In this document: one piece after another, positions 2,912-34,488 of the stretch
Numbering within the stretch: the first letter of the stretch is position 1
How the letters are laid out: each line of letters begins with the position of its first letter
Source of the DNA: Actinomyces slackii
Lineage (GTDB): Bacteria > Actinomycetota > Actinomycetes > Actinomycetales > Actinomycetaceae
Direction: 5' to 3'
NCBI RefSeq assembly: GCF_900637295.1
Contig: NZ_LR134363.1
Location: 372,001-436,000 of the forward strand
Length of the DNA stretch: 64,000 nucleotides
The notes under the pieces: model-generated
What the model was told of the DNA's origin: nothing
Seen by the model: the letters and a program-made list of their open reading frames with translations, nothing else
The model's database searches: none
Made by a program: the position numbers and the translations under genes

Positions 2912-3027
2912 GTCCTGTCCGCGGAGCCTTGAGCCCCCACGCCCGTCTCCGGGGCACCGCCCGGTCACATCTCGATCACTCCCCGGTGGTGACTCGTGAC
3001 GATGCCCGGCACCGGCCTCGCGCCGCT

Positions 3028-3033
3028 TAGGAT
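3028..3033 (+). promoter_or_regulatory. -10 box TAGGAT of the DrmD-like gene
   Basis: TAGGAT ends 7 bases before GTG 3041, the leaderless arrangement seen repeatedly in this window. This supports GTG 3041 over the upstream GTG 2996 or ATG 3002. No clear -35 hexamer is visible. Confidence 0.45.
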
Positions 3034-3040
3034 CATCCCC

Positions 3041-6000
3041 GTGACCACGGCCGCTCCCGCTCCCTCCTCGCTGGCTCCCCCAGGCACCGGGGCTCAGGGC
3101 CTTGACGTCGCTCCCGGCTCGGTGGTGCGCGTGCGCGACGAGGAGTGGCTGGTCACCCAGGTTGTCACCACGACCGACGGCATGCTCCTGACCGTCCAGG
3201 GCCTGTCCGAGCTCGTGCGCGACACCACCGCCCAGTTCAGCATCGGCCTGGACACGATCACCCCGGTGGACCCGCGCAGCACCCGCGTGGTCGCGGACAC
3301 CTCCAGCCGCCACCGCCTGTCGCGCCTGTGGCTGGAGGCGACCCTGCGCAAGACCCCGCTTCCTGCCTCCTCCACGGACCTGGCGGTGGTCGGCGACGTC
3401 CTGGCCGACCCACTGCCCTATCAGCTGGCCGCGGCCCGCCAGGCACTGGACCCCGCCAACCTGCGCCCGCGCATCCTCCTGGCCGACGCCGTGGGGCTCG
3501 GCAAGACCCTGGAGATCGGCATGATCCTGGCCGAGCTGGTGCGCCGTGGCCGCGGAGAGCGAATCCTCATCGTCACCCCGCGCCACGTCCTGGAGCAGAT
3601 GCAGCACGAGATGTGGTCGCGCTTCGCCCTGCCCTTCGTGCGCCTGGACTCGCTCGGCATCCAGCGGGTTCGGCGCTCGGTGCCGGCCACGCGCAACCCC
3701 TTCTCCGTCTACCACCGGGCGATCATCTCGATCGACACCCTGAAGTCAGACCGCTACCTCAGCCACCTGCGGCGCCAGCGCTGGGATGCCGTCGTCATCG
3801 ACGAGTCGCACAACATCACCAACCGGGGCACGCTCAACAACCGCCTGGCCGACGTCCTGGCCCGCCAGACCGACGCCCTCATCCTGGCCTCCGCAACCCC
3901 GCACAATGGCGACCCGCGCTCCTTCGCCGAGCTCATCCGCCTGCTGGAGCCGACCGCGGTCCACCCGGACGGCACGCTGGATGAGGAGGCGGTGCGCCGG
4001 CTCGTCATCCGCCGCCACCGCCACTCCCCGGAGGTGCGCGACGTCGTGGGCGGCCGGTGGAAGGAGCGGCTCACGCCGGTCAACCGGCTGGTGGAGCCCT
4101 CGCCCGCGGAGGACGCCGTGGCCGCGGAGCTGTCCCGCGCCTGGCTGCACCGGCCCGACGGCGCTGCGGCCCCGGGCCTGTCCCCGGGCCAGGCCCGGGG
4201 CGGGGACGCCTTGTTCTCCTGGACACTGGCCAAGGCCTTCCTGTCCTCCCCGGCCGCTCTCATCCAGACCATCGATGAGCGTATGTCCAGGCGCCGCTCC
4301 CGCGCGGCGAGCCAGGAGGCGCTGGCCTCCTCGGAGCAGTCCCGAGCCCTGGCCCGTCTGCGCGAGCTGGCCGCCTCGGCGAATACGACGAGCTCGGGCA
4401 AGTACCGGGCCCTGTTGGAGGAGCTGGCCCGCATTGGGGTCGGCCCGCGCTCCACCGAGCGCGTCGTCGTCTTCGCCGAGCGCATCGCGACCCTGACCTG
4501 GCTGGCCACCCACCTGCGCCGCGACCTGGGTCTGCCTGAGGAGGCGGTGCGGGTCATGCACGGCGGCCTGTCTGATGTGGAGCAGCAGGAGATCGTCGAG
4601 GCCTTCCGGCAGTCGCACACGCCGGTGCGCATCCTCGTCACCGGCGATGTCGCCTCGGAGGGCGTCAACCTGCACGCCCAGTGCCATGAGCTCATCCACT
4701 ACGACATCCCCTGGTCGCTCATCCGCATCGAGCAGCGCAATGGGCGCATCGACCGCTACGGACAGGAGACGTCGCCCCAGATCACGACCCTGCTGCTCAG
4801 CCCCTCTGATCCGGGTTTCTCCGGTGACGTGCGCGTGCTCACGCGCCTCATGGAGAAGGAGGACCAGGCGCACCGGGCGCTGGGCGACGCCGCCTCCCTC
4901 ATGGGCCTGTACTCCGGGGAGAAGGAGGAGAAGGCGATCCGTGAGGCGCTCCAGGCGGGGACGGATATCGACGACGTCGTCCCCGACGTGGACCAGGCCC
5001 TGGACCGCGACCCGATGGCGGCGCTCTTCGCCCGCCTGACCGGGACGGCGCAGGCGGATGAGGAGAAGGATCCTCACGATGCACAGCCTGCTGCTGACCG
5101 CGCCCTTGTCCCGGCGCCGTCGGCGACCAGCACCCTGTACGCATCGCAGGTGGACTACCTGCGCCAGGCACTGACAGAGCTCTACGAGAGGCCTGAGGAG
5201 AAGGCAGACGCGGCAACCGGCGGGGGCGGAGTCTCCTGGCGGGAGCACGGTAGCGAGCAGGTGGCCGAGCTCGTACCGCCGCCGGGGCTGCGCGCCCGTC
5301 TGGCGGTTCTGCCGCAGTCCTACCTGCAGGAGCGCAGGGTGCAGGAGCATCTGCTGCTGGCCACTACGCCCCGCAAGGGCGCGCGTCTCCTGGCGGAGGC
5401 GCTGCGGGATGACTCGGATTCCTCGTGGCCGGAGGCCCACTACCTGGGACCGCTGCACCCGGTGCTGGACTGGGCAGGCGACCGGCTTCTGGCGCGCCTG
5501 GGGCGTTCCTCGGTCTTCGCGGTTCACGGCTCGGTGGAGTCGCCAACCGTCCTGCTCCTGGGGACTTTGACGAACCGGGCGGGTCGGACGGTGTCCATGG
5601 TGAGTGTGAGCGTGGCCTTCCCCTACCTGGATGTGGAGGCGGCCCGCGCCGATATCGCGGCGGGGCACACGCTCACCCCCGTCTCAATGGTCACGGTGCA
5701 TGACTCTCCGTCGGCCATGCTCGCTGCGGCGGGCATCGAGCAGGAGCAGACGAACACGGGGGCGGTCTCCGACGTGGGGCTGCTGAGTGCGCTCATCGCC
5801 CCGGCGGTGGATGCGGCGCAGGATCAGATGAGCCTGACGATGAAGGCGGCAGCGGAGACAGCCCGGGCACGGGTGGCGACGTGGGCCGAGCGCGCGGACT
5901 CCTGGGACGACGACGCGGGCCGCCTCATCCAGAATCGCCACCTGCGCTCCCAGCGTCGCAGTGTCGATGAGGAGCGTGAGCTCATCGCGAAGCACTCGCC

Positions 6001-6079
6001 CGCCCACACCTTGATCCGGCCGCTGCTGGTTGTGGTGCCGCGGGATGTCGCCGGGGACGCAGAGGAAGGGGGCCGCTGA
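3041..6079 (+). CDS. drmD: SNF2/DEAD-type helicase, DISARM DrmD-like
   Basis: 1012 aa from GTG 3041 (1027 aa if GTG 2996 is used). Helicase motifs in order: PYQLAAARQAL, Walker A LADAVGLGKTLE near residue 150, DEAH-type VVIDESHN near 250, motif III LASATPHNG near 285, and C-terminal motifs VTGDVASEGVNLHAQC and QRNGRIDRYGQ near 545-575. This is the SNF2/HepA arrangement. The C-terminal 400 residues have no motif I recognise. Its stop overlaps the methyltransferase start by one base (TGATG), so the two are coupled. SNF2 helicase plus giant adenine methyltransferase is the drmD-drmMI hallmark of class 1 DISARM (family knowledge); the assignment by homology search is still needed. Confidence 0.75.
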   Translation: MTTAAPAPSSLAPPGTGAQGLDVAPGSVVRVRDEEWLVTQVVTTTDGMLLTVQGLSELVRDTTAQFSIGLDTITPVDPRSTRVVADTSSRHRLSRLWLEATLRKTPLPASSTDLAVVGDVLADPLPYQLAAARQALDPANLRPRILLADAVGLGKTLEIGMILAELVRRGRGERILIVTPRHVLEQMQHEMWSRFALPFVRLDSLGIQRVRRSVPATRNPFSVYHRAIISIDTLKSDRYLSHLRRQRWDAVVIDESHNITNRGTLNNRLADVLARQTDALILASATPHNGDPRSFAELIRLLEPTAVHPDGTLDEEAVRRLVIRRHRHSPEVRDVVGGRWKERLTPVNRLVEPSPAEDAVAAELSRAWLHRPDGAAAPGLSPGQARGGDALFSWTLAKAFLSSPAALIQTIDERMSRRRSRAASQEALASSEQSRALARLRELAASANTTSSGKYRALLEELARIGVGPRSTERVVVFAERIATLTWLATHLRRDLGLPEEAVRVMHGGLSDVEQQEIVEAFRQSHTPVRILVTGDVASEGVNLHAQCHELIHYDIPWSLIRIEQRNGRIDRYGQETSPQITTLLLSPSDPGFSGDVRVLTRLMEKEDQAHRALGDAASLMGLYSGEKEEKAIREALQAGTDIDDVVPDVDQALDRDPMAALFARLTGTAQADEEKDPHDAQPAADRALVPAPSATSTLYASQVDYLRQALTELYERPEEKADAATGGGGVSWREHGSEQVAELVPPPGLRARLAVLPQSYLQERRVQEHLLLATTPRKGARLLAEALRDDSDSSWPEAHYLGPLHPVLDWAGDRLLARLGRSSVFAVHGSVESPTVLLLGTLTNRAGRTVSMVSVSVAFPYLDVEAARADIAAGHTLTPVSMVTVHDSPSAMLAAAGIEQEQTNTGAVSDVGLLSALIAPAVDAAQDQMSLTMKAAAETARARVATWAERADSWDDDAGRLIQNRHLRSQRRSVDEERELIAKHSPAHTLIRPLLVVVPRDVAGDAEEGGR

Positions 6080-9000
6080 TGGCGGTGTCGGACGCGCTCG
6101 TCGTGGGCGAGGACTGGATCAGCGAGCACTACTTCACCACGGAGACCACGAAGGGGTCCTTCCTGGCCCGGGTGCTGGAGCGCCGTAAGGAGTGGGAGGC
6201 GCTGGAGAGGCCCGCCGACGGCGCCGCCCCGGTGGGGACTGCGCGCTCGCGCTTCCGCTCCGCCCGTCCCCGCCTGGAGGAGCTGCTCGCGGCTCTCCCG
6301 GCGGCCGACGACGAGGCGGCGGGCGAGGGCGCCCCGGTCACTCTCTCCGCTGCCGCACTGGATGCTGCCGCTGAGTTGGACACGCTGCTGCGCGAGGTCC
6401 TGGGCTTCGCCTCTGCCGAGTACCGGCTCACCGAGTGCGGTCCGGTGACGCTGGTGCGTCCCGTCGGTGATGACGGCCCGGCCCCGCTGGCGCTGGTGCG
6501 GGCCCGTCCGGCGGCCACGATCGAGGACCTGCTGGTCAAGGACGACCTGACTCTGGCTGAGCCCTGGGAGCCGGTGGACCTGGAGGACCCGGCGGCGTCG
6601 GCCGTGGAGGGGGCCGAGCCGGTGGAGTCTGTGTCCCGGGCGCTGTCGGCGCTCATGACCGATGAGCACGGTCCGGCCTTCGCCCTGGTACTGGCGGGGC
6701 GGTGGGCACTGGTCGCGGACAAGGAGCGGTGGCCGGAGGGCCGGTGGCTGGCGGTGGACGTCCAGCTCGTCGTGGAGCGCAATGAGGTCCGGCGCGGCGG
6801 CGAGGTGGAGCGGGCCCTGGCCTGCCTGGAGGCTGCCTCCCTGGTTCCCGGGCCGGAGGGCGAGACGTGGTGGGCGGCGACCATGGCGGACTCGGCAGCC
6901 CACACGGTGGGGGTGTCGAGGGATCTGCGCGAGGGTGTGCGCTCCTCGATTGAGGTCATCGCCAATGAGGTGGTGCGTCGTCGCGCCGCCCAGGGCCTAG
7001 CCCCGCTCCCCCAGGACCAGGCACAGCCGCTGGCTCTTCAATCGCTGCGCTTCATCTACCGGATCATCTTCCTGCTCTACGCCGAGGCGAGCCCGGAGCT
7101 GGGCGTGCTGCCGGTGGGGGCCGCGGAGTACGACGCCGGCTACGGCCTGGAGCGCCTGCGCGAGCTGTGCCTGCGGGAGCTGCATGAGGAGTCCTCGCAG
7201 TCGGGCACGCATGTCTATGAGTCCCTGAGCCTGCTGTTCCGCCTGGTGGACCGCGGTCACAACGCCCAGGCGGCAGCCGGCGAGGCCTTGGAGGAAGCGT
7301 TCGACGGCCTGGTCTTCCAGCCGATGCGCGCGGACCTGTTCCGCGACCAGGCCACGGCCCTCATCGATGAGGTGGGCCTGGGCAACGCGGCGATGCTGCG
7401 GGTGCTGCGCAGCCTGCTGCTGACCAAGGAGGGAGGCAAGGCCGGGCGCGGCTTCATCTCCTACGTGGAGCTGGGGATCAACCAGCTGGGCGCCGTCTAT
7501 GAGGGACTCATGAGCTATTCGGGGTCCTTCGCCACCGAGCGCCTGTGGGAGGTGGCGCCGGGCGGGGATGCCTCGAAGGGCTCGTGGGTGGTGCCCGAGG
7601 ATGTCATGGAGGGCCTGGAGGCCCAGGACTTCGTCATGACGACCGACGAGTCCACCGGGGAGCGCCGGAACGTCACCTATGAGAAGGGCGAGTTCGTCTT
7701 CCGGCTCTCGGGGCGGGACCGGCAGCGGTCGGCGTCGTTCTACACCCCGGAGGTGCTGACCCGCTTCACGGTGCAGCAGGCGCTGGCTGAGCTGTTGGAT
7801 CAGGACGGGCATGTCACCACTGCTGAGGAGGTGCTGGGCCTGACGGTGTGCGAGCCGGCGCTCGGCTCGGGGGCCTTCGCGATTGAGGCGGTGCGCCAAC
7901 TGGCGGAGCAGTACCTGTCCCGCAGGGAGCGCGAGCTGGGCGAGCGGGTGGACCCGGAGGAGCGTCCCCGTGAGCTGGCGAAGGTCAAGGCCTTCCTGGC
8001 GCTGCACCAGGTCTACGGGGTGGACCTCAATGCGACGGCTGTGGAGCTCGCGGAGGTCTCCCTGTGGCTGGACACAATGGTGGAGGGGCTGGCCGCGCCC
8101 TGGTTCGGGCTGCGGTTGCGGCGCGGCAATTCGCTGGTGGGGGCGAGGCGCGCCCTGTACTCGGTCTCCCAGCTGAAGAAGCGGGCGTGGCTGACGAACG
8201 CGCCGATCCCCGAACCGCTGCGCGCCGTGGCTGAGGCCATTGACGCCGACGACGGCGCCGCTCACCGCCTGGGTGGCGCCTTGGATGTGAGTGGCCGCAT
8301 CCATCACTTCCTGCTGCCGGCCAAGGGCTGGGGCAGTGCGGTGGAGGTGCCCAAGCAGGTGCGTGACCTGGTGGATGCTGACCGGCTGAGGGCTGTCAAG
8401 ACCTGGCGCAAGGAGATCACCAAGCAGCCGAGTGCGGCTCACACCAAGCGGCTGACGGCGCTGGCGCGGCGCGTGGAGGTTCTGTGGGAGTTGACGCTGC
8501 GGCGCCTGCGGGTGGCGGAGGCGGAGGCCTCCCGGCGGATCGACCTGTGGGGACGGGAGGCGGCATCCGACGACGGCTCGACGGTGAGCCGGGAGGAGAT
8601 TGAGGCCTACCTGGCGGACCCGAGTTCGGCCTACAGGCGGCTGCGCCTGGTCATGGATGCGTGGTGCGCCCTGTGGTACTGGCCGCTGACCACGAGTGTT
8701 CGGCCGCCCTCACTGGAGGAGTGGATCGGGGCCTTGGAGGGGCTGCTGGGCTATGCCGGAGCGGCCGGCCCGGCGAACGCCCAGACCCTGGATGAGGCGA
8801 CAACCTGGGCAGAGCTGGCCGACGCCGAGGACTGGGACCTCCAGTTCTCCAGCGCCCGTCGCGTGGAGGAGGTGGCGCGGGACAATCCATGGCTGACTGT
8901 GGTTCAGCAGCTGGCCGCCGAGCAGGGCTTCTTCCACTGGGAGCTGGACTTCGCCACGGTCTTCGCCCGTGGTGGCTTCGACCTCCAGGTGGGGAACCCA

Positions 9001-10833
9001 CCGTGGGTGCGGCCGCGCACGGACGTCAATGCTCTTCTGTCCGAGGGCGACCCGTGGTGGACTCTGACCAGCAAGCCGTCGGTTGCGGCGAAGGGCGAGC
9101 GCATGCCGCTCACTCTCGCCCGCGACGGTGTCCGCGAACTCGTTGTTGATGGCACAGTGGAGGTCATCGTCCTGTCCGAGATGTTGAGCGATGCCTCGGC
9201 GTACCCCCTGCTCAGCGGCCAGCCGGACCTCTACCGCGCCTTCATGTGCCAGGTCTGGGAGCACCAGAACAAGCAGGGCATCTCCAGCCTCATCCACATG
9301 GAGAGTCATTTCACGGATGCCAAGACTCCTGAGTTGCGTGCCGCTACCTACCGACGTCTACGTCGCCATTGGCAGTTCATCAACGAACTCCAACTCTTCG
9401 ACATTGATCATCACAACGCATACGGCGTCCATGTCTACAGCTCCGAACGAGTGTCGGCATTCCTGCATGCGACCTCGCTCTACCATCCTGACACAGCCCT
9501 CCGCTCCCTCCTTCATGACGGGAGTGACGAAGAGCCAGGCTTCAAAGATCCTCATACGGGCACATGGGACCTGCGCCCGCACGCGTCTCGCATCCAGCGT
9601 GTTGACGAGTCGGTGCTCCGGACATGGCAAGCGGTGACTGAGGCTGAGGACTGGCGATCGACCCCCATGGTCTCGACCGTCAATTCGGCCGCAGCTCGGA
9701 CACTGGCGATGCTGGCATCACATCCGCGCATCAGCAGTCTCGGGCTTGAGTTCTCGCGCGGATGGGATGAGTCCATCGACCGCCAGAAAGGTCGTTTCGT
9801 TCAGCGGTGGGGCGAAGCGTCGTGGGAGGACGCGATCCTTCAAGGCCCTCACATCCATGTGTCGACGCCTCTGTATAAGGCACCGAACGCGACGATGAAG
9901 CACAATCAGGACTGGACCTCGACGGATTTCGAAGCCCTGCCTGCGGATGCGCTGCCGGTCACCCAGTACAAGCCTGCGGGCGACCGCACCACCTACGACC
10001 GCCTCTACACCCACTGGGGCGACTCCTCCGCCCGCGACCACTACCGCATCGCCTGGCGCACTCAAGTGCCTTTGACTGGAGAGAGAACCCTTGCCCCCGC
10101 AATGATTCCACCCGGTTCAGCCCACGTCGATGGAGTGTTCTCCGCAGGGCTATCGCATGGCAGCACCCGCCAACTCGCAATCGCAGCCGGAGGCTTGAGC
10201 TCACTCCTAATCGACTTCTACGTTCGCTCACGAGGTCTCTCCCACATACGAGGATCGGCTGCCAACTCACTCCCCACCATCACCTTCGAGTCCCCCCTCG
10301 CGAACCGAATCCTTTCACGCATCCTCCGCCTCACCTGTGTCACGAAGGCTTACGCGGATCTGTGGACGGAGTGCTGGGAGGATGCCTTCCTGGCTGATGA
10401 GCCGATCCTGGAGCGTCATGACGAGCGCCCCATCGGCCCCGAATGGGCTCCTGATGTGCCGCTGCGTCGTGCGGAGGACCGCCGCAACGCCCAGGCGGAG
10501 ATCGATGTCATGGTGGCGGCGATGCTGGGCGTGCCGATAGAGGACCTGTGCACGATCTACCGCACCCAGTTCGCTGTGCTGTACGACTACGACCACGGCC
10601 GTGGCCAGGGGGCTTACCTCTATGACGCGAACGGCAGGCAGGTGCCGACTCCGGTCCGCCAGGCCTGGCAGAAGCGCCAGCGCCCGGACTCGAATGATGC
10701 CATGCCGTTATCTGAGCGCACCCACACCCACCCCGGTTCGGGAGTAAACTACACCTACAACCTCCCCTTCCACACCCGCGACCGCCAATCCGACTTCCGC
10801 CACATCCACGCCTCCTTTACCCATACGACATAA
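6079..10833 (+). CDS. drmMI: Large class I adenine-specific DNA methyltransferase, DISARM DrmMI/Eco57I-like
   Basis: 1584 aa, one of the two giant proteins of the island. The SAM-binding motif I CEPALGSGAFAIEA lies near residue 595 and the catalytic motif IV GNPPW near residue 972. The long spacing contains a helical insert. This layout, N-terminal helical region, methylase core and C-terminal target-recognition region (about 1200-1550), is that of Eco57I/PglX/DrmMI enzymes, which make N6-methyladenine. The region from about 9300 to 10370 has visibly lower GC and different codon use than the rest, consistent with an exchanged target-recognition segment (inference). In DISARM-type systems methylation marks self DNA while helicases act on unmarked DNA. 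The downstream partners are 13 kb away at 24006. Confidence 0.8.
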   Translation: MAVSDALVVGEDWISEHYFTTETTKGSFLARVLERRKEWEALERPADGAAPVGTARSRFRSARPRLEELLAALPAADDEAAGEGAPVTLSAAALDAAAELDTLLREVLGFASAEYRLTECGPVTLVRPVGDDGPAPLALVRARPAATIEDLLVKDDLTLAEPWEPVDLEDPAASAVEGAEPVESVSRALSALMTDEHGPAFALVLAGRWALVADKERWPEGRWLAVDVQLVVERNEVRRGGEVERALACLEAASLVPGPEGETWWAATMADSAAHTVGVSRDLREGVRSSIEVIANEVVRRRAAQGLAPLPQDQAQPLALQSLRFIYRIIFLLYAEASPELGVLPVGAAEYDAGYGLERLRELCLRELHEESSQSGTHVYESLSLLFRLVDRGHNAQAAAGEALEEAFDGLVFQPMRADLFRDQATALIDEVGLGNAAMLRVLRSLLLTKEGGKAGRGFISYVELGINQLGAVYEGLMSYSGSFATERLWEVAPGGDASKGSWVVPEDVMEGLEAQDFVMTTDESTGERRNVTYEKGEFVFRLSGRDRQRSASFYTPEVLTRFTVQQALAELLDQDGHVTTAEEVLGLTVCEPALGSGAFAIEAVRQLAEQYLSRRERELGERVDPEERPRELAKVKAFLALHQVYGVDLNATAVELAEVSLWLDTMVEGLAAPWFGLRLRRGNSLVGARRALYSVSQLKKRAWLTNAPIPEPLRAVAEAIDADDGAAHRLGGALDVSGRIHHFLLPAKGWGSAVEVPKQVRDLVDADRLRAVKTWRKEITKQPSAAHTKRLTALARRVEVLWELTLRRLRVAEAEASRRIDLWGREAASDDGSTVSREEIEAYLADPSSAYRRLRLVMDAWCALWYWPLTTSVRPPSLEEWIGALEGLLGYAGAAGPANAQTLDEATTWAELADAEDWDLQFSSARRVEEVARDNPWLTVVQQLAAEQGFFHWELDFATVFARGGFDLQVGNPPWVRPRTDVNALLSEGDPWWTLTSKPSVAAKGERMPLTLARDGVRELVVDGTVEVIVLSEMLSDASAYPLLSGQPDLYRAFMCQVWEHQNKQGISSLIHMESHFTDAKTPELRAATYRRLRRHWQFINELQLFDIDHHNAYGVHVYSSERVSAFLHATSLYHPDTALRSLLHDGSDEEPGFKDPHTGTWDLRPHASRIQRVDESVLRTWQAVTEAEDWRSTPMVSTVNSAAARTLAMLASHPRISSLGLEFSRGWDESIDRQKGRFVQRWGEASWEDAILQGPHIHVSTPLYKAPNATMKHNQDWTSTDFEALPADALPVTQYKPAGDRTTYDRLYTHWGDSSARDHYRIAWRTQVPLTGERTLAPAMIPPGSAHVDGVFSAGLSHGSTRQLAIAAGGLSSLLIDFYVRSRGLSHIRGSAANSLPTITFESPLANRILSRILRLTCVTKAYADLWTECWEDAFLADEPILERHDERPIGPEWAPDVPLRRAEDRRNAQAEIDVMVAAMLGVPIEDLCTIYRTQFAVLYDYDHGRGQGAYLYDANGRQVPTPVRQAWQKRQRPDSNDAMPLSERTHTHPGSGVNYTYNLPFHTRDRQSDFRHIHASFTHTT

Positions 10834-10896: not shown

Positions 10897-12735
10897 ATGC
10901 ATCTCAAGCGCATAGAAGTTATGGGGTACCGTGCGTCCGCTAACGTACCAATCGTTTGTGAGCTGAGCGGACGCTTCTCTCTGATCCTTGGCGCCAATAA
11001 CTCCGGGAAAACGACGATCAACGAGGCAATCGCTCTGGCCCATCCACGTCGCTTCCCTCGACTCGCACCTATCGACGCAACAGCCTTGGGAGCCGCGCCG
11101 CGGTCAGTTCGCGTAGAGTACGAATTCGAAGCCGACTCGTCTCGCGAAGGCGCATTTGGACAGTATCGAAAGCGGCATGGACTCGCAGCGCCACGGTGGA
11201 GCCGTCCCCTTGAACGTTCACTCGGCCAGGTCCGCGCAGGCCAGCCCGTCGAGTTGGCCGACGAGCACAACAGCATTCGGCTCGTACACCTACCGGCTCT
11301 GCGGAATCCAGTCGACGATCTCTCAAGACGCGACGCCCGTATCCTCCTCGAACTGCTCCGCGCCGACGAACGTAGACACCCGGAAACCGGCGGACTTCGA
11401 TCTCTACGAGCCCAAGCCGAAGGCATGCTTGACTCACTCACCAGCCACTCACTCGTGAGGAGCGTCGAAGACCGCATCGCTGAGAACCTCAAAATCATCA
11501 GCGGCGGAGTCCAGGAGCATCACGCATTCGTAGGCACACAGACAGTCGATGACACCTACCTCGCCCGAGTGTTCGAAATGCTCGTCGCGCTCATCCCAGA
11601 CCGCGCGACCGCCCGGCGCTTGCAGGTGTCTAGCCTGGGCTATGTGAACCTGCTTCACATAGCCATCACCCTCGCCGGCATCCCAGATGCAGGAAGCACC
11701 TTACCGCCCGATGATCCGTCGAGTGGCAGCGGCGATGCAAACGAAGACGTAGGGAGCGATGATGAACGTGTCGAGGCTGCAAGAAAGAGGCTCGCCCAGA
11801 CGCAAGAGGCTGCGGATACCGATGCAGATTCGTTCTACCCGGAGCTCTTCCACGCCACGGTCTTGATTGAGGAGCCAGAAGCTCACCTTCACCCACAGCT
11901 TCAGTACGGCCTCATCCGCTATCTGCGCACCCTAGTCGAGGATCGCCCAGACATTCAGGTCATCGTGACGACGCACTCTACTGATCTCGCCGCCGCCTGC
12001 GATCCCGAGGAACTTGTCATCGTGCGAAAGGACGCTGAGAACCGCACAGTTTCACGCCGGCTCGCGGACCTCCCATTAAGCGACGACCTCAAGACCAGGT
12101 TGTTCCAGCAGACTCGTCTGCACCTTGATGCAACACGGTCAGCCGCCTTGTTTGCAGATCGAGTTCTCATCGTCGAGGGAGTCACGGAGGCCAGCATCCT
12201 CAGACTGCTCGGGCGGGCGTGGGCAGGTAACGACACACGACGAATCGGCTTCATCGACTCTCTCGCGATCCTTCCAGTCGGCCACAAAGTTGGGGAGTGG
12301 CCGATCCGCCTACTCGCGACACCTGGCCACGAGCTTGTCGTCCGCGTTGCTGCCATCGCCGACACGGACCGGCGCGGTACACCGCTGCCCGAACCACAGC
12401 CACCGGCCTGGCACACAGAGCTCGACCCGAGCTCCGCACGCTTCTACTGGTCCCGACCAACGCTGGAGCCCTCACTTGTCAGCGGGAACGAAGTCCTCAT
12501 CAAAGACGCTTTTACGGAATGCAACCTCGTCGCTCCTAACCCAGTAAGCGCCGAGACTATCGACCGGTTCTTTGCGAACCAATCGAGGCACAAGGCCAAA
12601 TTCGCGCTCGCACTCTCCCGGCTGATCGACCAGAATCTGAGTACTGTCGTCATCCCAGATCCCATCACCGCCATGTTCACCTGGCTCTACGACGGCACGG
12701 AACCAGGCTCGTCTCTCGCGGACGACATCATCTGA
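10897..12735 (+). CDS. gajA: OLD-family ATPase with TOPRIM nuclease domain, Gabija GajA-like
   Basis: 612 aa, close to the length of GajA proteins. N-terminal ABC-type ATPase with Walker A GANNSGKTT near residue 33, Walker B/D-loop LIEEPEAHLHP near 326 and TTHSTDL near 358. This is followed by a TOPRIM domain with LIVEGVTEASIL (catalytic Glu) near 424 and AIADTDRRG (DxD) near 486. In Gabija this protein is a nucleotide-regulated DNA endonuclease (family knowledge). It starts at ATG 10897, 63 bases after the methyltransferase, with an AGGCGA ribosome site. The UvrD-like gene starts 8 bases after its stop. Base composition falls from here rightward, suggesting separate acquisition from the methyltransferase. 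Confidence 0.82.
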   Translation: MHLKRIEVMGYRASANVPIVCELSGRFSLILGANNSGKTTINEAIALAHPRRFPRLAPIDATALGAAPRSVRVEYEFEADSSREGAFGQYRKRHGLAAPRWSRPLERSLGQVRAGQPVELADEHNSIRLVHLPALRNPVDDLSRRDARILLELLRADERRHPETGGLRSLRAQAEGMLDSLTSHSLVRSVEDRIAENLKIISGGVQEHHAFVGTQTVDDTYLARVFEMLVALIPDRATARRLQVSSLGYVNLLHIAITLAGIPDAGSTLPPDDPSSGSGDANEDVGSDDERVEAARKRLAQTQEAADTDADSFYPELFHATVLIEEPEAHLHPQLQYGLIRYLRTLVEDRPDIQVIVTTHSTDLAAACDPEELVIVRKDAENRTVSRRLADLPLSDDLKTRLFQQTRLHLDATRSAALFADRVLIVEGVTEASILRLLGRAWAGNDTRRIGFIDSLAILPVGHKVGEWPIRLLATPGHELVVRVAAIADTDRRGTPLPEPQPPAWHTELDPSSARFYWSRPTLEPSLVSGNEVLIKDAFTECNLVAPNPVSAETIDRFFANQSRHKAKFALALSRLIDQNLSTVVIPDPITAMFTWLYDGTEPGSSLADDII

Positions 12736-12743
12736 GCGCACCG

Positions 12744-14267
12744 ATGATTCGGCTAACAAACACCCAAGTGCTTGCCGCTGCCGCTCCTGATCGACTCGTC
12801 AATGTCATCTCAGCTCCCGGTAGCGGCAAGACGACTATCGCCGCCGAACGCTACGGCTACTTGCGATACCAGACGAGTGATCTTCGCGGCACTCTTGGCC
12901 TTACCTTCAACCGCGCCGCAGCCGTGGAACTGCGCCGCCGGATTGACTTTCGCTGGGGCGCGAACTGTATCAAGCCACCACATCGCGTTATCACCTTCGA
13001 CCACCTCCATGTCGAATTCCTCACTCATCTCCTCAACGGAGGCAAGATCACATGGCCGAATGGCGTTACTACCCTCGATGTCCGCGATGATTACCGAGGT
13101 GTCAAGGGTTTCCGTTTCCTTCAAGCCGGAAACTACGTTCGCGTCGCAGGCCTCGACAACAGACGTGTGGTCGTCTCCCAGAGCCGCAAAGTGACAAAAC
13201 CGGAGTCAGGTATCGGTAAGGTCGACCACCATCGAGCAGTACTCAACGTGGGGACGGTTAGCCACGAAGATATTCGCTCGATTCTTTGCGCGGCCATGCA
13301 GGTCGACGAGCTGCAGCAGGTCGCGGCCGACTGGCTGTCTGCGAACTATCGCGCGGCTATCATCGACGAAGTGTACGATGCGGACGATCTCGATCTCCGC
13401 GTTGCCTACCTGGCCGCCGAAGCCGGGCTGTCGGTCACCCTCATTGGCGATCCCCGGCAAGCACTCTACAAGTGGCGAGGCGCGAAACCGGAGATTGTGG
13501 AAAGACTGTTGGAAGGCACGTCCGATCAGTTCGTTGCGTACGAGCAACCAGAGTCCTTCAGGTTTGTCGGCGAGCAGATGCCTGACCTGGCAACGAATCT
13601 ACGTGCCGGCGTCGGTGCAACTCTACCTCGCACTGATAGTAGCGAGGTTGACGTCGCACTCGCCCGAAATTGGAGACAACTGTGGTCTGTCGGCGATAAT
13701 ATCCTTCCGCTCGCCTTCAAGACGGTTGATAACACGACGGATGCGGCGATGAACCTTCTCCTTGACGTTGTCACGCGTGCCCGCCTCGGCACGTCATCGC
13801 ACGGGCGCGAAGGGGCCATCATGAAGTTACGTCTCGATCGCGAGCAGTTTCAGGCTACGCAAGATGAGTTCTTTGCACCACTTATCGTAAAGTTATGTGC
13901 TGGCGAAGATGAAAGTCAAGTCCTTGGAGACCTTCGTGAAACTATCAAGAGTCTTGGCGGACACAAACCGATACGGCTTCCCGATAAGGAGGCCACTTTT
14001 CGACAGCAACTTTCTCAGCTTGCGGCTAGATTGAACCAAACAGCAGTAATTCCTGGCCTTACCGTCTTTCAAGCAAAAGGACGAGAGTGGCAACGAGTTG
14101 GAGTCGTGCTTTCCGAAGACCAACTCGCTGCGCTTGAGTCGGGACTTGAAGTAATAGAAGAGGAGCACTGTATCACTTACGTAGCGATCACCCGAGCCAA
14201 ACGGTTCTGTGGCCTCTTGTCCACCACTCCGAGTTCCGCGACTGCCCAACTCCAACTCGACATGTAG
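12744..14267 (+). CDS. gajB: UvrD/Rep-like superfamily 1 helicase, Gabija GajB-like
   Basis: 507 aa, the size of GajB. Motifs: Walker A SAPGSGKTT near residue 25, LTFNRAA near 52, Walker B AIIDEVYDADDLDL near 207, GDPRQALYKWRG near 236, VFQAKGREWQRV near 443, and motif VI YVAITRAKRF near 478. The Walker B lacks the usual DEAQD but keeps the DE pair. Its position directly behind the OLD/TOPRIM ATPase is the defining Gabija arrangement. GC is well below that of the neighbouring housekeeping genes. A third gene encoding a CHAT protease follows after 134 bases on the same strand. Confidence 0.82.
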   Translation: MIRLTNTQVLAAAAPDRLVNVISAPGSGKTTIAAERYGYLRYQTSDLRGTLGLTFNRAAAVELRRRIDFRWGANCIKPPHRVITFDHLHVEFLTHLLNGGKITWPNGVTTLDVRDDYRGVKGFRFLQAGNYVRVAGLDNRRVVVSQSRKVTKPESGIGKVDHHRAVLNVGTVSHEDIRSILCAAMQVDELQQVAADWLSANYRAAIIDEVYDADDLDLRVAYLAAEAGLSVTLIGDPRQALYKWRGAKPEIVERLLEGTSDQFVAYEQPESFRFVGEQMPDLATNLRAGVGATLPRTDSSEVDVALARNWRQLWSVGDNILPLAFKTVDNTTDAAMNLLLDVVTRARLGTSSHGREGAIMKLRLDREQFQATQDEFFAPLIVKLCAGEDESQVLGDLRETIKSLGGHKPIRLPDKEATFRQQLSQLAARLNQTAVIPGLTVFQAKGREWQRVGVVLSEDQLAALESGLEVIEEEHCITYVAITRAKRFCGLLSTTPSSATAQLQLDM

Positions 14268-14401
14268 ATCTGTTGACCTTTTCTTCGAAAGCGTAGATGT
14301 AAAGCGATGGTCCAACCCCAGAATTAATAAGGTTTTCGGGCATTTTCTGATGTGCAGCCCCGAAGTATTTATGGTACCAGCGAAAACCTAGAGGAGCTGA
14401 A

Positions 14402-15463
14402 TTGGGATCACAGCAGTACCGCAGAGAACTTGACCGCAAGCGGAAGCAACGCGTCGAGGCGGAGAAGAAGGCTGTTGAGTACCGGAATAAGGAGTCGCAG
14501 AAGCGTGCTGAAGCGGATAGGGCACATCAAGAGGCAATCAAGACCAAGAGCGCATCAGCACAGAAGGCAAAGATGAGCCGAGCTGCCCAGCGCGACCGAG
14601 ATGCCGCGTCCGCCGGACGCGAAGCTAACAAATGGCAGAAGAAGGCCTCCGACTATCGGAAACAGGAAGTGAATCTTCAGACCAAACTTGCGCGAGCAGA
14701 GCACTCTGAGGCCGAAGCAGCGGAACGCAAGCGTAAGCGAGAGCAAGCTGAGACCGATCGACGCACAGCCGCAGAACGCGCTGCAATTGAAGTACGCTTC
14801 GACCGCACTGAACATGCTGTCGGGGAAGTGCTCCGGAAACTACGAGCACCCAAGCCAGAGAAGTTGCGTGTGCTGTTGCTCGGAGCGTCCTCCGAAGGCG
14901 ATCTGCGCGTCGGTCGGGAGCAGAAGCGCATCCGATCCGCAGTCGAGTCTGCGCTGCACCGGGACCTGATCGAGCTCGATGTCCGTCCTGCCGCGACCGT
15001 GAATGATCTGCTGGATGGCATTACTAGGTTCCGTCCACATGTTGTGCACTTCTCCGGTCACAGTAGCGAAGATCTCATCGTCTTCGAACGCGACACCGAT
15101 GTGCTGCACAAGGGGCAGGACGTCACTGCGCACGCTTTCTTACGCGCGATCGCGGCCACCGACGACCCACCACTGCTCGTGCTGCTCAACGCCTGTAATT
15201 CCGCTGCTCAGATCGATCAACTCGTCGGTGACGCGGTCCCGTTCGCCATCGGAATGGCTGACAGCATCAACGACGAAGATGCCATTAGCTACGCCGCACG
15301 GTTCTACGCTTCCGTAGCGAACGGGCAGTCGGTACGCTCAGCGCATCTGTCCGGACAAGCTGCACTTGAACTAGCCGGCCTCGACAGTACTGAGCTTCCG
15401 ATTCTCGCCTCAGCTACAGACGTCGATCCTGGAGTCACGGTCCTGGTAGAGTCCGTCGGCTAA
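14402..15463 (+). CDS. Coiled-coil protein with C-terminal CHAT (caspase-like) protease domain
   Basis: 353 aa starting at TTG 14402; a strong GAGGAG at 14391-14396 decides this rare start. Residues 1-145 are highly charged (Lys/Arg/Glu/Ala-rich) and should form a long coiled coil. Residues 155-353 form a CHAT domain: RVLLLGASSEGDLR, HVVHFSGHSSE with His220, LVLLNACNSA with Cys265, and AIGMADSINDEDA. His220/Cys265 match the caspase-like dyad. CHAT proteases act as effectors in several bacterial immune systems (family knowledge). The position directly behind gajA and gajB, on the same strand and with similar base composition, suggests it is part of that system, either as an effector or as a sensor arm (inference). 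I do not recognise this coiled-coil/CHAT pairing as a described Gabija component. Confidence 0.78.
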   Translation: MGSQQYRRELDRKRKQRVEAEKKAVEYRNKESQKRAEADRAHQEAIKTKSASAQKAKMSRAAQRDRDAASAGREANKWQKKASDYRKQEVNLQTKLARAEHSEAEAAERKRKREQAETDRRTAAERAAIEVRFDRTEHAVGEVLRKLRAPKPEKLRVLLLGASSEGDLRVGREQKRIRSAVESALHRDLIELDVRPAATVNDLLDGITRFRPHVVHFSGHSSEDLIVFERDTDVLHKGQDVTAHAFLRAIAATDDPPLLVLLNACNSAAQIDQLVGDAVPFAIGMADSINDEDAISYAARFYASVANGQSVRSAHLSGQAALELAGLDSTELPILASATDVDPGVTVLVESVG

Positions 15464-15629: not shown

Positions 15630-15740
15630 CTATAGTTTGCGTTCGGCTTCGTTCGAAACGCGGCGGTAAGGCTCTGAATGAAGGCGTTTATAGTTGTACA
15701 TCAATTCAATCCAGGTTATGACAGCCCGGATGGCGCCGGC
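15630..15740 (-). pseudogene. IS3-family transposase (OrfB) C-terminal remnant
   Basis: The minus-strand peptide ITWIELMYNYKRLHSEPYRR, ending in a stop at 15630, matches the C-terminal end of IS3-type OrfB transposases (W-x-x-x-x-YNxxRLHS). Only about 37 codons are recognisable, and the preceding sequence is unrelated. The flank near 15555-15580 may hold the old element end. The rest of the 15464-15833 gap contains no other gene I can support. Confidence 0.55.
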
Positions 15741-15833
15741 GGGCAGCCGGAAGGAAGACAGGACCAGAGCGAGCCAGGTCACGGCGACGACCATGCTCTT
15801 CTGCGTCTGCACGCGCTGCTCCTCCCACCCCTG

Positions 15834-22504: not shown

Positions 22505-22873
22505 ATGGACGTGCGGTGGACAGTCGAGCTCTCTGACGAGGTCTTGGCCTGGTATCAGGGGCTGAGCCCCGAGGGCAAGGCGGCGGTTGGTCGCGTGCTC
22601 TCCCGTCTGGAGGAGTCAGGCCACATGCTTGGGATGCCGTTGTCGAGGCAGCTCGGTGGTGGCCTGCGTGAGCTGCGATTCACGTGCGAGGGCGTGGCGC
22701 GGCGGATCACCTACGTGCTCGACCCCGAGCGCCACGCCGTCACGCTGACAACGTTCCGTAAGCAGCGTCGCAACGAACGGGCGCAGATCCTGCGGGCCCG
22801 CCGGGCTCAGGCGGCTCACGAAGCCGATCGAGCCACCGCCGAGGAAGCCAGAAGGAAGGAGAAGCGATCATGA
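22505..22873 (+). CDS. HigB/RelE-superfamily toxin (phage Gp49-like)
   Basis: 122 aa if ATG 22505 is used, 120 aa from GTG 22511; the promoter geometry (TATATT 6 bases before the GTG) favours GTG. The RelE-like fold is evident: LSDEVLAWYQGLSPEGKAAV, PLSRQLGGGLRELRF, RRITYVLDPERHAVTLTTF then RKQ, a typical HigB/Gp49 series with a basic C-terminal tail. Such toxins cleave mRNA on ribosomes. The antitoxin gene overlaps its stop (ATGA). Toxin-first order is usual for HigBA. Confidence 0.85.
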   Translation: MDVRWTVELSDEVLAWYQGLSPEGKAAVGRVLSRLEESGHMLGMPLSRQLGGGLRELRFTCEGVARRITYVLDPERHAVTLTTFRKQRRNERAQILRARRAQAAHEADRATAEEARRKEKRS

Positions 22874-23175
22874 AGACCACGCCGTTCAGGCAGGCTGAGG
22901 CCGAGGCCCTGGCCTCCATGACCCCAGACGAGCGAGCCCGCTTCAACGCCGCCGAGGCGGAGGAGGAGACAAGGCTCCAGCTTGCCGAGCTCGTCTACAC
23001 GGCTCGCACACGGGCCGGACTGACCCAGACCGAGCTGGCCGAACGCATGGGCACCAAGCAATCAGTCATCTCTGCCGTTGAGAACGGAGGACAGATCCCC
23101 TCAGTGTCGACCCTCCGGCGTATCGCCCACGCACTGGACCTGAACCTCACCATCGACATGGCCGCCGCAAGCTGA
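22870..23175 (+). CDS. HigA-like XRE-family antitoxin
   Basis: 101 aa, overlapping the toxin by 4 bases with an AAGGAG ribosome site. A Cro/CI helix-turn-helix spans about residues 40-95 (ARTRAGLTQTELAERMGTKQ, SVISAVENGGQIPSVSTLRR). The N-terminal segment is acidic and likely wraps the toxin. It probably binds the inverted repeat at 22484-22501. Confidence 0.88.
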   Translation: MKTTPFRQAEAEALASMTPDERARFNAAEAEEETRLQLAELVYTARTRAGLTQTELAERMGTKQSVISAVENGGQIPSVSTLRRIAHALDLNLTIDMAAAS

Positions 23176-23287: not shown

Positions 23288-23626
23288 TCACAGATCCAGG
23301 AGCAGTCCGAGCACCTCACGAATCTCGCTGAGGAGAACTGGTCCTACGACTCCTCGGTTCCCAGAAAGCCGCGCGACGGAGACAGACCGCACATGCTGAC
23401 ACTGCGCTGCTGAGGGGGCTGTGAGCTGGTTCTGTCCATCGGGTTCGATGTAGACCTCCGCCCCGCTGGGCCGGATGGTCCGGGTCAGCGGGACCACGTG
23501 CACTACGTTGGGATCGCCTTGCAAGATGCCGTCTGCGGTGACGACGACGCCGGGGCGGCGAGGACCCGCTTCACTCCCGATGGGTGTGCCAAGGTCGACC
23601 TCGACGATGTCACCCGAGCTCAGCAT
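23288..23626 (-). CDS. mazF: MazF/PemK-family endoribonuclease toxin
   Basis: 112 aa from ATG 23626 (an in-frame ATG at 23644 is also possible). The MazF core is clear: GDIVEVDLGTPIGSEAGPRR, PGVVVTADG, VVPLTRTIRPSGAEVYI, CQHVRSVSVARL. MazF toxins cut single-stranded RNA at short motifs. The antitoxin precedes and overlaps by 17 bases. Confidence 0.88.
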   Translation of the reverse strand: MLSSGDIVEVDLGTPIGSEAGPRRPGVVVTADGILQGDPNVVHVVPLTRTIRPSGAEVYIEPDGQNQLTAPSAAQCQHVRSVSVARLSGNRGVVGPVLLSEIREVLGLLLDL

Positions 23627-23807
23627 TGAGCCAAGCCTTCTCATCCGGGTCCAGGTCGGCGTTCAGATCGCGGCCTATCGACAGCTGGCGCAAGGCGCGC
23701 AGGGCGCGATCCACGGTCTGGTCAACGCTTTCGTCGTGCTGCTTGGCTAGCCGCGTGATGCGGCGGTGCGTCTGCCGGCTCACGCGAATGGTGGTGGTCT
23801 CGCTCAT
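23610..23807 (-). CDS. Ribbon-helix-helix antitoxin, MazE-like partner of MazF
   Basis: 65 aa from ATG 23807. SETTTIRVSRQTHRRITRL followed by two helices is the ribbon-helix-helix DNA-binding fold; the acidic tail (DLDPDEKAWLNAELG) would bind the toxin. The start sits 7 bases behind a TACATT -10 box with no ribosome site, so the mRNA appears leaderless. Confidence 0.8.
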   Translation of the reverse strand: MSETTTIRVSRQTHRRITRLAKQHDESVDQTVDRALRALRQLSIGRDLNADLDPDEKAWLNAELG

Positions 23808-33095: not shown

Positions 33096-33380
33096 TTACA
33101 GGAGTTGGTCGTGGCTTCCGGTGCGGGCCAGGACGAGGGTGCCATCGCTCTCGATGGTGTAGAGGAGGAGCCAGTCGGCTGCGATGTGCAATTCACGGTA
33201 GGCGGAGAGGTTGCCCGTGAGTTGGTGGTCCCGATGCTGTCTGAGCCAGTCGGCACGGCGGTCCGCGACTGCTTGGATCGCGGTCTTGAGCGCCTCCATG
33301 TCGTAGTGCTTGCGCTTGAGCCGTTTCACGTCGCGCAGGAAGGCCGGCCGGTAGGCGATCTCGCGCTCAGGCACGGTCAA
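33096..33380 (-). CDS. YafQ-family type II toxin
   Basis: 94 aa from TTG 33380 (GTG 33374 would give 92 aa). AYRPAFLRDVKRLKRKHYDM, LTGNLSAYRELHIAADWLLL, YTIESDGTLVLARTGSHDQL is the YafQ series, including the terminal His of the active site (GSHDQL). YafQ toxins are ribosome-dependent mRNA endonucleases. The antitoxin gene overlaps upstream by 14 bases. It is convergent with the UvrD gene. Confidence 0.88.
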   Translation of the reverse strand: MTVPEREIAYRPAFLRDVKRLKRKHYDMEALKTAIQAVADRRADWLRQHRDHQLTGNLSAYRELHIAADWLLLYTIESDGTLVLARTGSHDQLL

Positions 33381-33621
33381 TGAGGTCCATCAACTCGTCG
33401 ACGTCTCGGACCTTGACAGCGGACTCGGCCTCAGCCTCGCGGATCGCGTCGACGTAAGGGGTGAGACTGGGTTGGAAGGGCAGCCTCTGGTCGTGGACGA
33501 TCTGGTTGAGGAACATGTTGATCGCGGTGGGCATGTCGATGCCCATCCTGTCCAGGGTCCTTGTGGCCCGCTCCTTGAGCTGGCGGTTGGTGCGCACCTG
33601 GATGCGAGTATCGAGTTCCAT
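33367..33621 (-). CDS. RelB/DinJ-family antitoxin
   Basis: 84 aa from ATG 33621 with a GAGGGTAGGGTG ribosome region. MELDTRIQVRTNRQLKERA, LDRMGIDMPTAINMFLNQI is the RelB/DinJ ribbon-helix-helix domain, and the C-terminal helix (VKVRDVDELMDLIDRA) binds YafQ-type toxins. It is read from a promoter at 33658-33685. Confidence 0.88.
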   Translation of the reverse strand: MELDTRIQVRTNRQLKERATRTLDRMGIDMPTAINMFLNQIVHDQRLPFQPSLTPYVDAIREAEAESAVKVRDVDELMDLIDRA

Positions 33622-33657
33622 CACCCTACCCTCCGCTTGTGGGGCTATCGTACTCTC

Positions 33658-33685
33658 ATTGTACTCACTGAAGAGAGGAGCGCAA
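33658..33685 (-). promoter_or_regulatory. Promoter of the DinJ-YafQ pair
   Basis: On the minus strand TTGCGC (33680-33685), a 16-bp spacer, and TACAAT (33658-33663). GTACTC occurs twice around the -10 (33650-33666), a possible antitoxin site. Unlike many genes here, this one has a leader of about 30 bases with a ribosome site. Confidence 0.55.
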
Positions 33686-33689
33686 CGAG

Positions 33690-34488
33690 CCGCCACTCAC
33701 GTGGAGCGCCCACGATGCCAGTCCTGGTAGGAGGCCGAAGGGCGGCTAGTCCTTGCTTGGCGAGAAGGGGACGGGGGACCCCGCTCTGCGAAGCCTCGGC
33801 TGGCGACGTTCCGCATAACATGGCCCGTCGTATCCTCGGCATCTCAGATCATCCCGCCTCACTCGCTCCTCAACGCCTCGCGTCCCATGCCCAAGCGAGT
33901 ACGGAGACACCCGGGTCCCGCATGGAGGGAGATCCAGGCCACCACAACTGCGGTCCAGGCCCACTGACCCTTGGACCAGAAGGCGGTCAGGCCCGCTCCC
34001 CAGCACCGGCACGGCTGTGTCCTGACAACAACCCTGGCGAACACCCCCGGAGCCGGCACGACGGGCGCGGCAGGCCTGCCCACCGTCCGCCTCTGCTGTC
34101 ATGGCAAGGAAAGGACCGGCCCTGGACTCCCACCGGCGTGGGCGGCGGAACCGGTCGTATTGCACTGATCCTACCCGCTCGACTTAGCGGTTGGACAGTG
34201 CGACGAGCCCCATCTTGGCTGCCCGCGCGCCACGGGCCAACGCCATCGGGCTCCGCACCTGTGCCCGCACAAACAGGCCATACACCGACACCCACCCGAG
34301 CCAATGCGATCCCATCGGGCCGGGCCAACTAACGGCGACAACAGCTGCACCAATAATAGGCGGGGCACTTGGGTTGGAAACCGCACACCACGCTCCTTCA
34401 TTTGTTGGGAATCCAACATACACACTAAACACACCCGTCAAACGTCACAATACGAGACAGCCACTCTCCTGCACTAATGCGAATCAGA
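33690..34488. other. Gap without a convincing gene
   Basis: No frame here has both a good start and family likeness. A minus-strand frame from TTG 34441 to 34184 (85 codons) is hydrophobic (PIIGAAVVAVSWPGP, HWLGWVSVYGLFV) and may be a piece of a decayed small membrane protein; another hydrophobic stretch, WAWTAVVVAWISLH, lies on the same strand near 33950 in a different frame. GC drops sharply to the right of about 34340, where the low-GC segment begins. Confidence 0.3.

Follow-up and report, generated by a model that had tools for sequence, protein, structure and literature searches.

Does the Gabija system of Actinomyces slackii carry a third, protease-encoding component, or does the protease gene behind it simply stand next to an ordinary two-gene system? 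The question is raised by a 64,000-nt stretch of contig NZ_LR134363.1 (here called the window, meaning the whole stretch that was analyzed), in which gajA-like and gajB-like genes are followed by a gene for a coiled-coil protein with a caspase-like CHAT domain (coil-CHAT), an arrangement that a sequence-only reading had interpreted as a possible three-gene defense system. Our analysis favors a different reading, to which we assign a probability of about 0.62: the CHAT gene is a self-contained single-gene sensor-effector, often borne by mobile elements, and is not a third Gabija component, with Gabija acting beside it as usual.

The gene pair and the gene behind it

The first part of the sequence-only reading, that genes for a GajA-like protein (OLD-family ATPase plus TOPRIM) and a GajB-like protein (UvrD-type helicase) lie 8 bases apart, is borne out by profile and structure database matches. 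The gajA-like gene (10897..12735, + strand, 612 residues) matches the PADLOC GajA model (E value of 7.3e-50), Pfam AAA_15 (1.8e-21), and, among PDB sequences, OLD nuclease 6p74 (1.6e-14), with an OLD-like TOPRIM match barely at the cut-off; the gajB-like gene (12744..14267, + strand, 507 residues) matches PADLOC GajB (3.7e-29) and UvrD-helicase (2.3e-20), and its best PDB sequence matches include solved GajB chains (1.8e-9). GajA holds the strings GANNSGKT, LIEEPEAH, LIVEG, and ADTD, and GajB holds SAPGSGKT, IIDEVYD, LIGDPRQALYKWRGA, and ITRAKRF, which we take to be Walker, TOPRIM, and helicase motifs. With an OLD-type ATPase bearing a TOPRIM domain and a UvrD-type helicase encoded directly behind it, this is, as judged from sequence, an ordinary Gabija pair.

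The coil-CHAT gene (14402..15463, + strand, 353 residues) follows gajB after a 134-base gap (14268..14401), and all three reading frames are open. A ribosome binding site, GAGGAG (14391..14396, + strand), lies 5 bases ahead of its TTG start. Both had been pointed out previously, and we regard both as real: in seven copies of the gene on conjugative elements, GAGGAG or GAGGAA precedes a TTG (five copies) or GTG (two copies) start at the same position as in the window, and in all seven the frame ahead of CHAT is divergent, which indicates that the gene carries its own start along. The earlier observation that gajB and the CHAT gene are alike in base composition stands as a measurement (G+C of 0.562 and 0.59, respectively, compared with 0.603 for gajA, 0.44 for the gap, and 0.679 for the whole window), but the likeness is not diagnostic.

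Distribution of the CHAT gene with and without gajAB

The sequence-only reading had proposed counting how often a coiled-coil CHAT gene follows gajAB in other genomes, and such counts show no recurrence of the arrangement in other lineages. Two peptide patterns run against a collection of 84,980 species yielded, from the best 80 of 87 confirmed stretches, 78 distinct CHAT loci. None of the 78 contains a gajB relative in the flanking DNA examined (sought only in frames of at least 60 residues at an E value of 1e-4; upstream DNA was shorter than 4 kb in eight loci, namely L024, L043, L054, L055, L064, L069, L074, and L082), and an OLD-like protein (32%) is present at only one, L016. Across 396 genomes of the order, with at most five CHAT and three GajA candidates scored per genome, CHAT was found in 10 (E value of 1e-12 or better; five of these at just 32 to 40% identity) and GajA in 11, and both were found only in the window's own genome; some of these loci repeat members of the 78-locus set (G632 is L010, and G273 is L031). 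In the 396 genomes, housekeeping UvrD-type helicases swamped the PADLOC GajB profile, and no counts were drawn from it; its top three matches elsewhere (L157 to L159) lie outside the set of loci read for neighbors. A GajB protein search of 297 genomes was likewise swamped, and only its four strongest places were used, one of them the window. When eight gajAB loci were read for neighbors, CHAT was present in the window, reduced to a remnant in G024, and absent from G630, G687, G723, G296, G113, and G100, where 5.5 to 8 kb of downstream sequence was covered. In G630, which of the six comes closest to the window (71% for GajA and 62% for GajB), gajAB is followed by a gene for a non-CHAT protein of 308 residues. 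On these counts we rejected the three-gene system, and the CHAT gene is a neighbor of Gabija and probably not its partner.

In G024 (L118), where the remnant lies, gene order is as in the window (61% for the DrmD-like helicase and 73% for the type IIG restriction-methylation protein encoded upstream, 77% for GajA, and 68% for GajB), and a large gene further downstream, common to both, marks it as the same site. CHAT here is reduced to a piece corresponding to residues 267 to 349 (72%; L118 9466-10129), with the reading frames of gajA, gajB, and the type IIG enzyme still open, which argues that CHAT is not needed there. The 415-base interval between gajB and the CHAT piece has no similarity to the window's gap; on its other strand we noted, by eye, a resemblance to an insertion-sequence fragment. 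A phylogenetic tree of CHAT (a quick tree of 61 of 182 sequences over 83 columns, with 32 of 55 inner branches unresolved) separates the window and G024 copies, placing the former nearest P0001 (93%) and the latter nearest P0008 (90%), and forcing the two together lowered the log-likelihood by 31.0 units (approximately unbiased [AU] test, p = 0.0283). Vertical common descent of the two copies is thus disfavored by the AU test, although the site is syntenic. They are probably not sisters, and either two acquisitions at one site or a replacement is possible, although the tree is suggestive only.

Elsewhere, the gene is frequently found on mobile DNA without Gabija. One conjugative-element type, recognized by at least two of four recurring neighbor families, accounts for 26 of the 78 loci; one of these families is a TraG/type IV secretion system (T4SS) coupling protein (E value of 2.9e-27). 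In most of the 26 the frame ahead of CHAT is divergent, and in 19 the frame directly after it belongs to a convergent neighbor family, c3. Over all 78 loci, the gene ahead of CHAT is divergent in 47, on the same strand in 30, and missing in 1, counts that are approximate in that a first gene caller gave antisense artifacts in high-GC DNA and the codon-position caller used instead is still rough. CHAT also has matches in 63 plasmid records, four of which were inspected; in these four, whose annotation is incomplete, the 600 bases on either side of CHAT hold no annotated gene on its strand. Hypothetical, integrase, relaxase, and recombinase genes are among the neighbors, with restriction-type genes 2 to 5 kb away in L214. 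A plasmid search with the N-terminal part of the protein recovered only three records with the low-complexity filter on. The plasmid matches include some to the CHAT domain (34.9% over residues 176 to 349) on Staphylococcus plasmids.

Other copies lie near defense-type genes. In L016 and L022 (both Nesterenkonia), a DrmD-like helicase gene and type III restriction genes precede CHAT; the OLD-like gene of L016 (within L016 319-11062) is apparently split in two frames and sits between the restriction genes and CHAT, and the order in L022, with transposase-like frames between, was inferred from common neighbor families. In L053 (2456-11056; Corynebacterium sp. MSK008), CHAT stands directly behind a helicase/type IIG pair (49%/47% to those of the window) with no gajAB, and in L070 it lies two frames ahead of an LmuB-like gene. 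None of 50,697 phage records contained coil-CHAT, and none of 24 viral contig stretches that fit a pattern was confirmed as coil-CHAT; this absence neither supports nor excludes a role in defense. Taken across these genomes, CHAT is a mobile cargo gene that is independent of gajAB in other genomes.

The coil-CHAT protein and its N-terminal hairpin

The predicted model of the window protein consists of an N-terminal helical hairpin (residues 3 to 145, with helices at 3-47 and 51-145; 14402..14836, + strand) and a caspase-like domain (14855..15460, + strand) whose closest structural match, beginning at residue 152, is SAVED-CHAT (PDB 8tl0). The putative catalytic dyad, His220 (codon 15059-15061) and Cys265 (codon 15194-15196), is strongly conserved: of 45 aligned proteins, the window protein included, 44 retain each residue, and L067 lacks both. 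The coiled-coil CHAT protein with a His/Cys dyad proposed in the sequence-only reading is therefore confirmed at the level of conservation, and the caspase-like fold, for which structure prediction had been suggested as a check, is found in the model. Together, the predicted fold and the dyad fit a CHAT peptidase. Pfam PF12770 has matches in 19 of the 45 aligned proteins; the window protein is not among these and has no match at an E value of 0.1. Fifteen relatives from several genera are conserved over the full length at 64 to 82% identity.

The hairpin links this protein to a second family. PDC-S66 (PADLOC candidate PDLC05062) is named as an uncharacterized candidate in PMC12482510; its member L123 has a coil followed by a TIR_2 domain (PF13676; 2.9e-19), and all 23 proteins listed for the L123 coil carry TIR domains and are 52 to 99% identical to L123, which makes them one close group. 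The window protein matches the PDC-S66 profile at 4.7e-7, with the match ending at residue 128 and the C-terminal half being CHAT, and the hairpin match is recovered in 41 of the 45 aligned CHAT-family proteins. Alignment of the CHAT-family and TIR-family hairpins with hhalign spans 115 columns nearly without gaps (scores of 63.4 and 65.0, probability of 97), compared with a maximum of 15.2 over 120 column shuffles (60 free and 60 keeping heptad class) and 9.6 for the reversed profile. The predicted coil-TIR model has hairpin helices at residues 3-48 and 52-139, with predicted local distance difference test (pLDDT) values of 84 to 97 in blocks to residue 110, the rest of the model being poor (mean of 71.3); the hairpins of the two families are thus of similar length and turn at the same position, with TIR at the C terminus of PDC-S66 where coil-CHAT has CHAT. 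Individual CHAT proteins vary in which hairpin profile they resemble, as seen in a comparison of three proteins run without composition control: L216 (Halobacillus) scores 46.1 bits with the TIR-type profile versus 23.2 with the actinobacterial CHAT-type profile and L153 scores 38.9 versus 31.0, whereas L211 scores 40.2 with the CHAT-type and 7.8 with the TIR-type profile.

These profile comparisons establish the hairpin of coil-CHAT as homologous to that of coil-TIR PDC-S66, and so mark it as a module that is found fused to one effector or the other. We consider it an even bet that a single recognition module is common, in at least two phyla, to single-gene immune proteins with either a TIR NADase or a CHAT caspase killing domain, and that coil-CHAT genes are a portable form of caspase immunity carried by conjugative elements and plasmids. 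Further N-terminal matches to the PDC-S66 profile include L146, L147, L151, and G603, of which the first two were read. L147 was set aside as a long coiled coil with, by eye, an M23-type peptidase end, indicating that the profile also catches unrelated coils; L146, with a frame of 148 residues, looks by eye like a hairpin that lacks an effector.

The architecture of coil-CHAT can be compared with several known systems. SAVED-CHAT has a SAVED domain ahead of CHAT; coil-CHAT lacks SAVED and has the hairpin in its place. The solved form in 8tl0 is, according to the title of the entry, an activated filament. In SpbK of ICEBs1, the N-terminal domain binds the phage portal protein and thereby clusters TIR (PMC12847820); SpbK, like coil-CHAT, is a conjugative-element gene with an N-terminal recognition domain (proposed as such in coil-CHAT) and a C-terminal effector, but that effector is a TIR NADase instead of CHAT, and we liken the two by architecture only. 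With SpbK and the SAVED-CHAT filament as models, the hairpin would act by clustering CHAT domains. It would sense a trigger, oligomerize, or both; most likely, an invader component, such as a phage protein or the product of a competing element, would cluster the hairpins, the joined caspase-like CHAT domains would come together and become active, and the active protease would then cut host proteins, leading to growth arrest or death of the infected cell. The mode of action would probably be abortive infection. Gabija, as a GajA nuclease with a GajB helicase, would work beside coil-CHAT in an island that also contains the DrmD-like helicase and the type IIG enzyme.

Related principles have been described. 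In effector-associated-domain (EAD) and ternary conflict systems, a given adaptor domain can be joined to a variety of effectors, including caspase-like, CHAT, and TIR domains (PMC8195603, PMC10907252), which makes the idea of one hairpin with two effectors less surprising; EAD adaptors, however, link separate sensor and effector proteins, whereas the coil-CHAT hairpin is fused to its effector within one small gene. CHAT is listed for both Borvo and type III-E CRISPR (PMC10952713), in which, as predicted here for coil-CHAT, a CHAT protease is the defense effector (PMC10952713, PMC10028731); unlike coil-CHAT, the TPR-CHAT of type III-E works with an RNA-guided CRISPR effector (PMC10028731). Type IV Thoeris provides a TIR-activated caspase-like protease (cited in PMC12847820). 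Among the matches listed in searches of open-licence PubMed Central, preprints excluded, we found no description of the coil-CHAT family, of such a gene beside Gabija, or of a hairpin common to TIR and CHAT proteins. Within that scope, the coil-CHAT family would be new as a putative fused sensor-effector variant; the principle of one adaptor with many effectors is already published. The tempting but weak claim of a caspase-armed Gabija is thereby replaced with a testable one, a widespread single-gene caspase-like protein with a front end homologous to the one in a TIR candidate. Should the hairpins of both families respond to one kind of trigger, a single screen could identify it for either effector class and could show one way in which bacterial caspase-type death is wired to sensors.

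Alternative explanations and the surrounding island

Several observations weigh against an independent CHAT gene. No + strand terminator pattern and no sigma-70-like promoter were found in the gap (14268..14401), the latter carrying little weight for an actinobacterium, so read-through from gajB is possible; by the rough gene caller, a same-strand gene lies within 150 bases of CHAT in 13 of the 78 loci; the two genomes with gajB among 49 in the genus, the window's and G024, are also the two with CHAT, at one syntenic site; and the nearest copies, P0001 and P0008, are on metagenome contigs where gajAB could adjoin them. Together with the common strand and the 134-base gap, such points would fit a CHAT protease that, in this lineage, has become an arm or regulator of gajAB and contributes a step of suicide or release, and if the window and G024 copies are separate acquisitions (AU p of 0.028), this could even mean repeated recruitment. 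We nevertheless regard this explanation as improbable given that gajB is missing from every one of the 78 CHAT loci, CHAT from six of the eight gajAB loci, and the two coincide in 1 of 396 genomes, and given that CHAT has decayed in G024 beside an open gajAB. The window's two upstream genes match Gabija without it, and elsewhere CHAT is not tied to them. An equally improbable reading makes CHAT a regulatory protease that acts on a specific substrate and takes no part in conflict. Its whole-length conservation among the 15 relatives would favor this reading; patchy presence (10 of 396 genomes), mobile carriage, and decay in G024 fit a cargo gene better.

Mobile carriage in turn raises the prospect that coil-CHAT serves the element and not the host, conjugative elements and plasmids using it for post-segregational effects or for exclusion. 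Its recurring place in one conjugative-element type (a third of the loci) and the plasmid copies favor such a device, but CHAT is also found near restriction, Gabija, and LmuB-like genes, its hairpin is common to a defense candidate, and the four plasmid copies have no recurring partner gene beside them in their incomplete annotation; we consider this explanation unlikely. A further possibility, doubtful on present counts though compatible with a self-contained CHAT gene, is that the conserved partner of Gabija is the restriction block, such that helicase, type IIG enzyme, gajA, and gajB are one co-inherited operon with CHAT as a later passenger. In the window, the gene for the DrmD-like SNF2-family helicase (2996..6079, + strand; PADLOC DrmD, 7e-92) overlaps by 1 base the type IIG gene (6079..10833, + strand; PADLOC REase_MTase_IIG, 1366 bits), which precedes gajA. 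A type IIG gene also stands directly before gajA in G024, and G630 (L207) has one of another subfamily upstream of gajA with helicase pieces between; the helicase/type IIG pair of L053 shows the block ahead of CHAT without gajAB. Five of the eight gajAB loci, however, have no type IIG match in the approximately 4 to 5 kb covered upstream of gajA, the sample is small, and defense genes cluster anyway.

Upstream of the helicase lies an AbiL-like pair (808-2124 and 2128-2721, + strand; PADLOC AbiLi, 7.8e-76, and AbiLii, 3.2e-18). Directly 3' of CHAT on the minus strand, a short frame (15630-15812) resembles, by eye, the end of an insertion-sequence transposase. Further along the window, three pairs of small genes (22505-23175, 23288-23807, and 33096-33696) appear toxin-antitoxin-like by eye.

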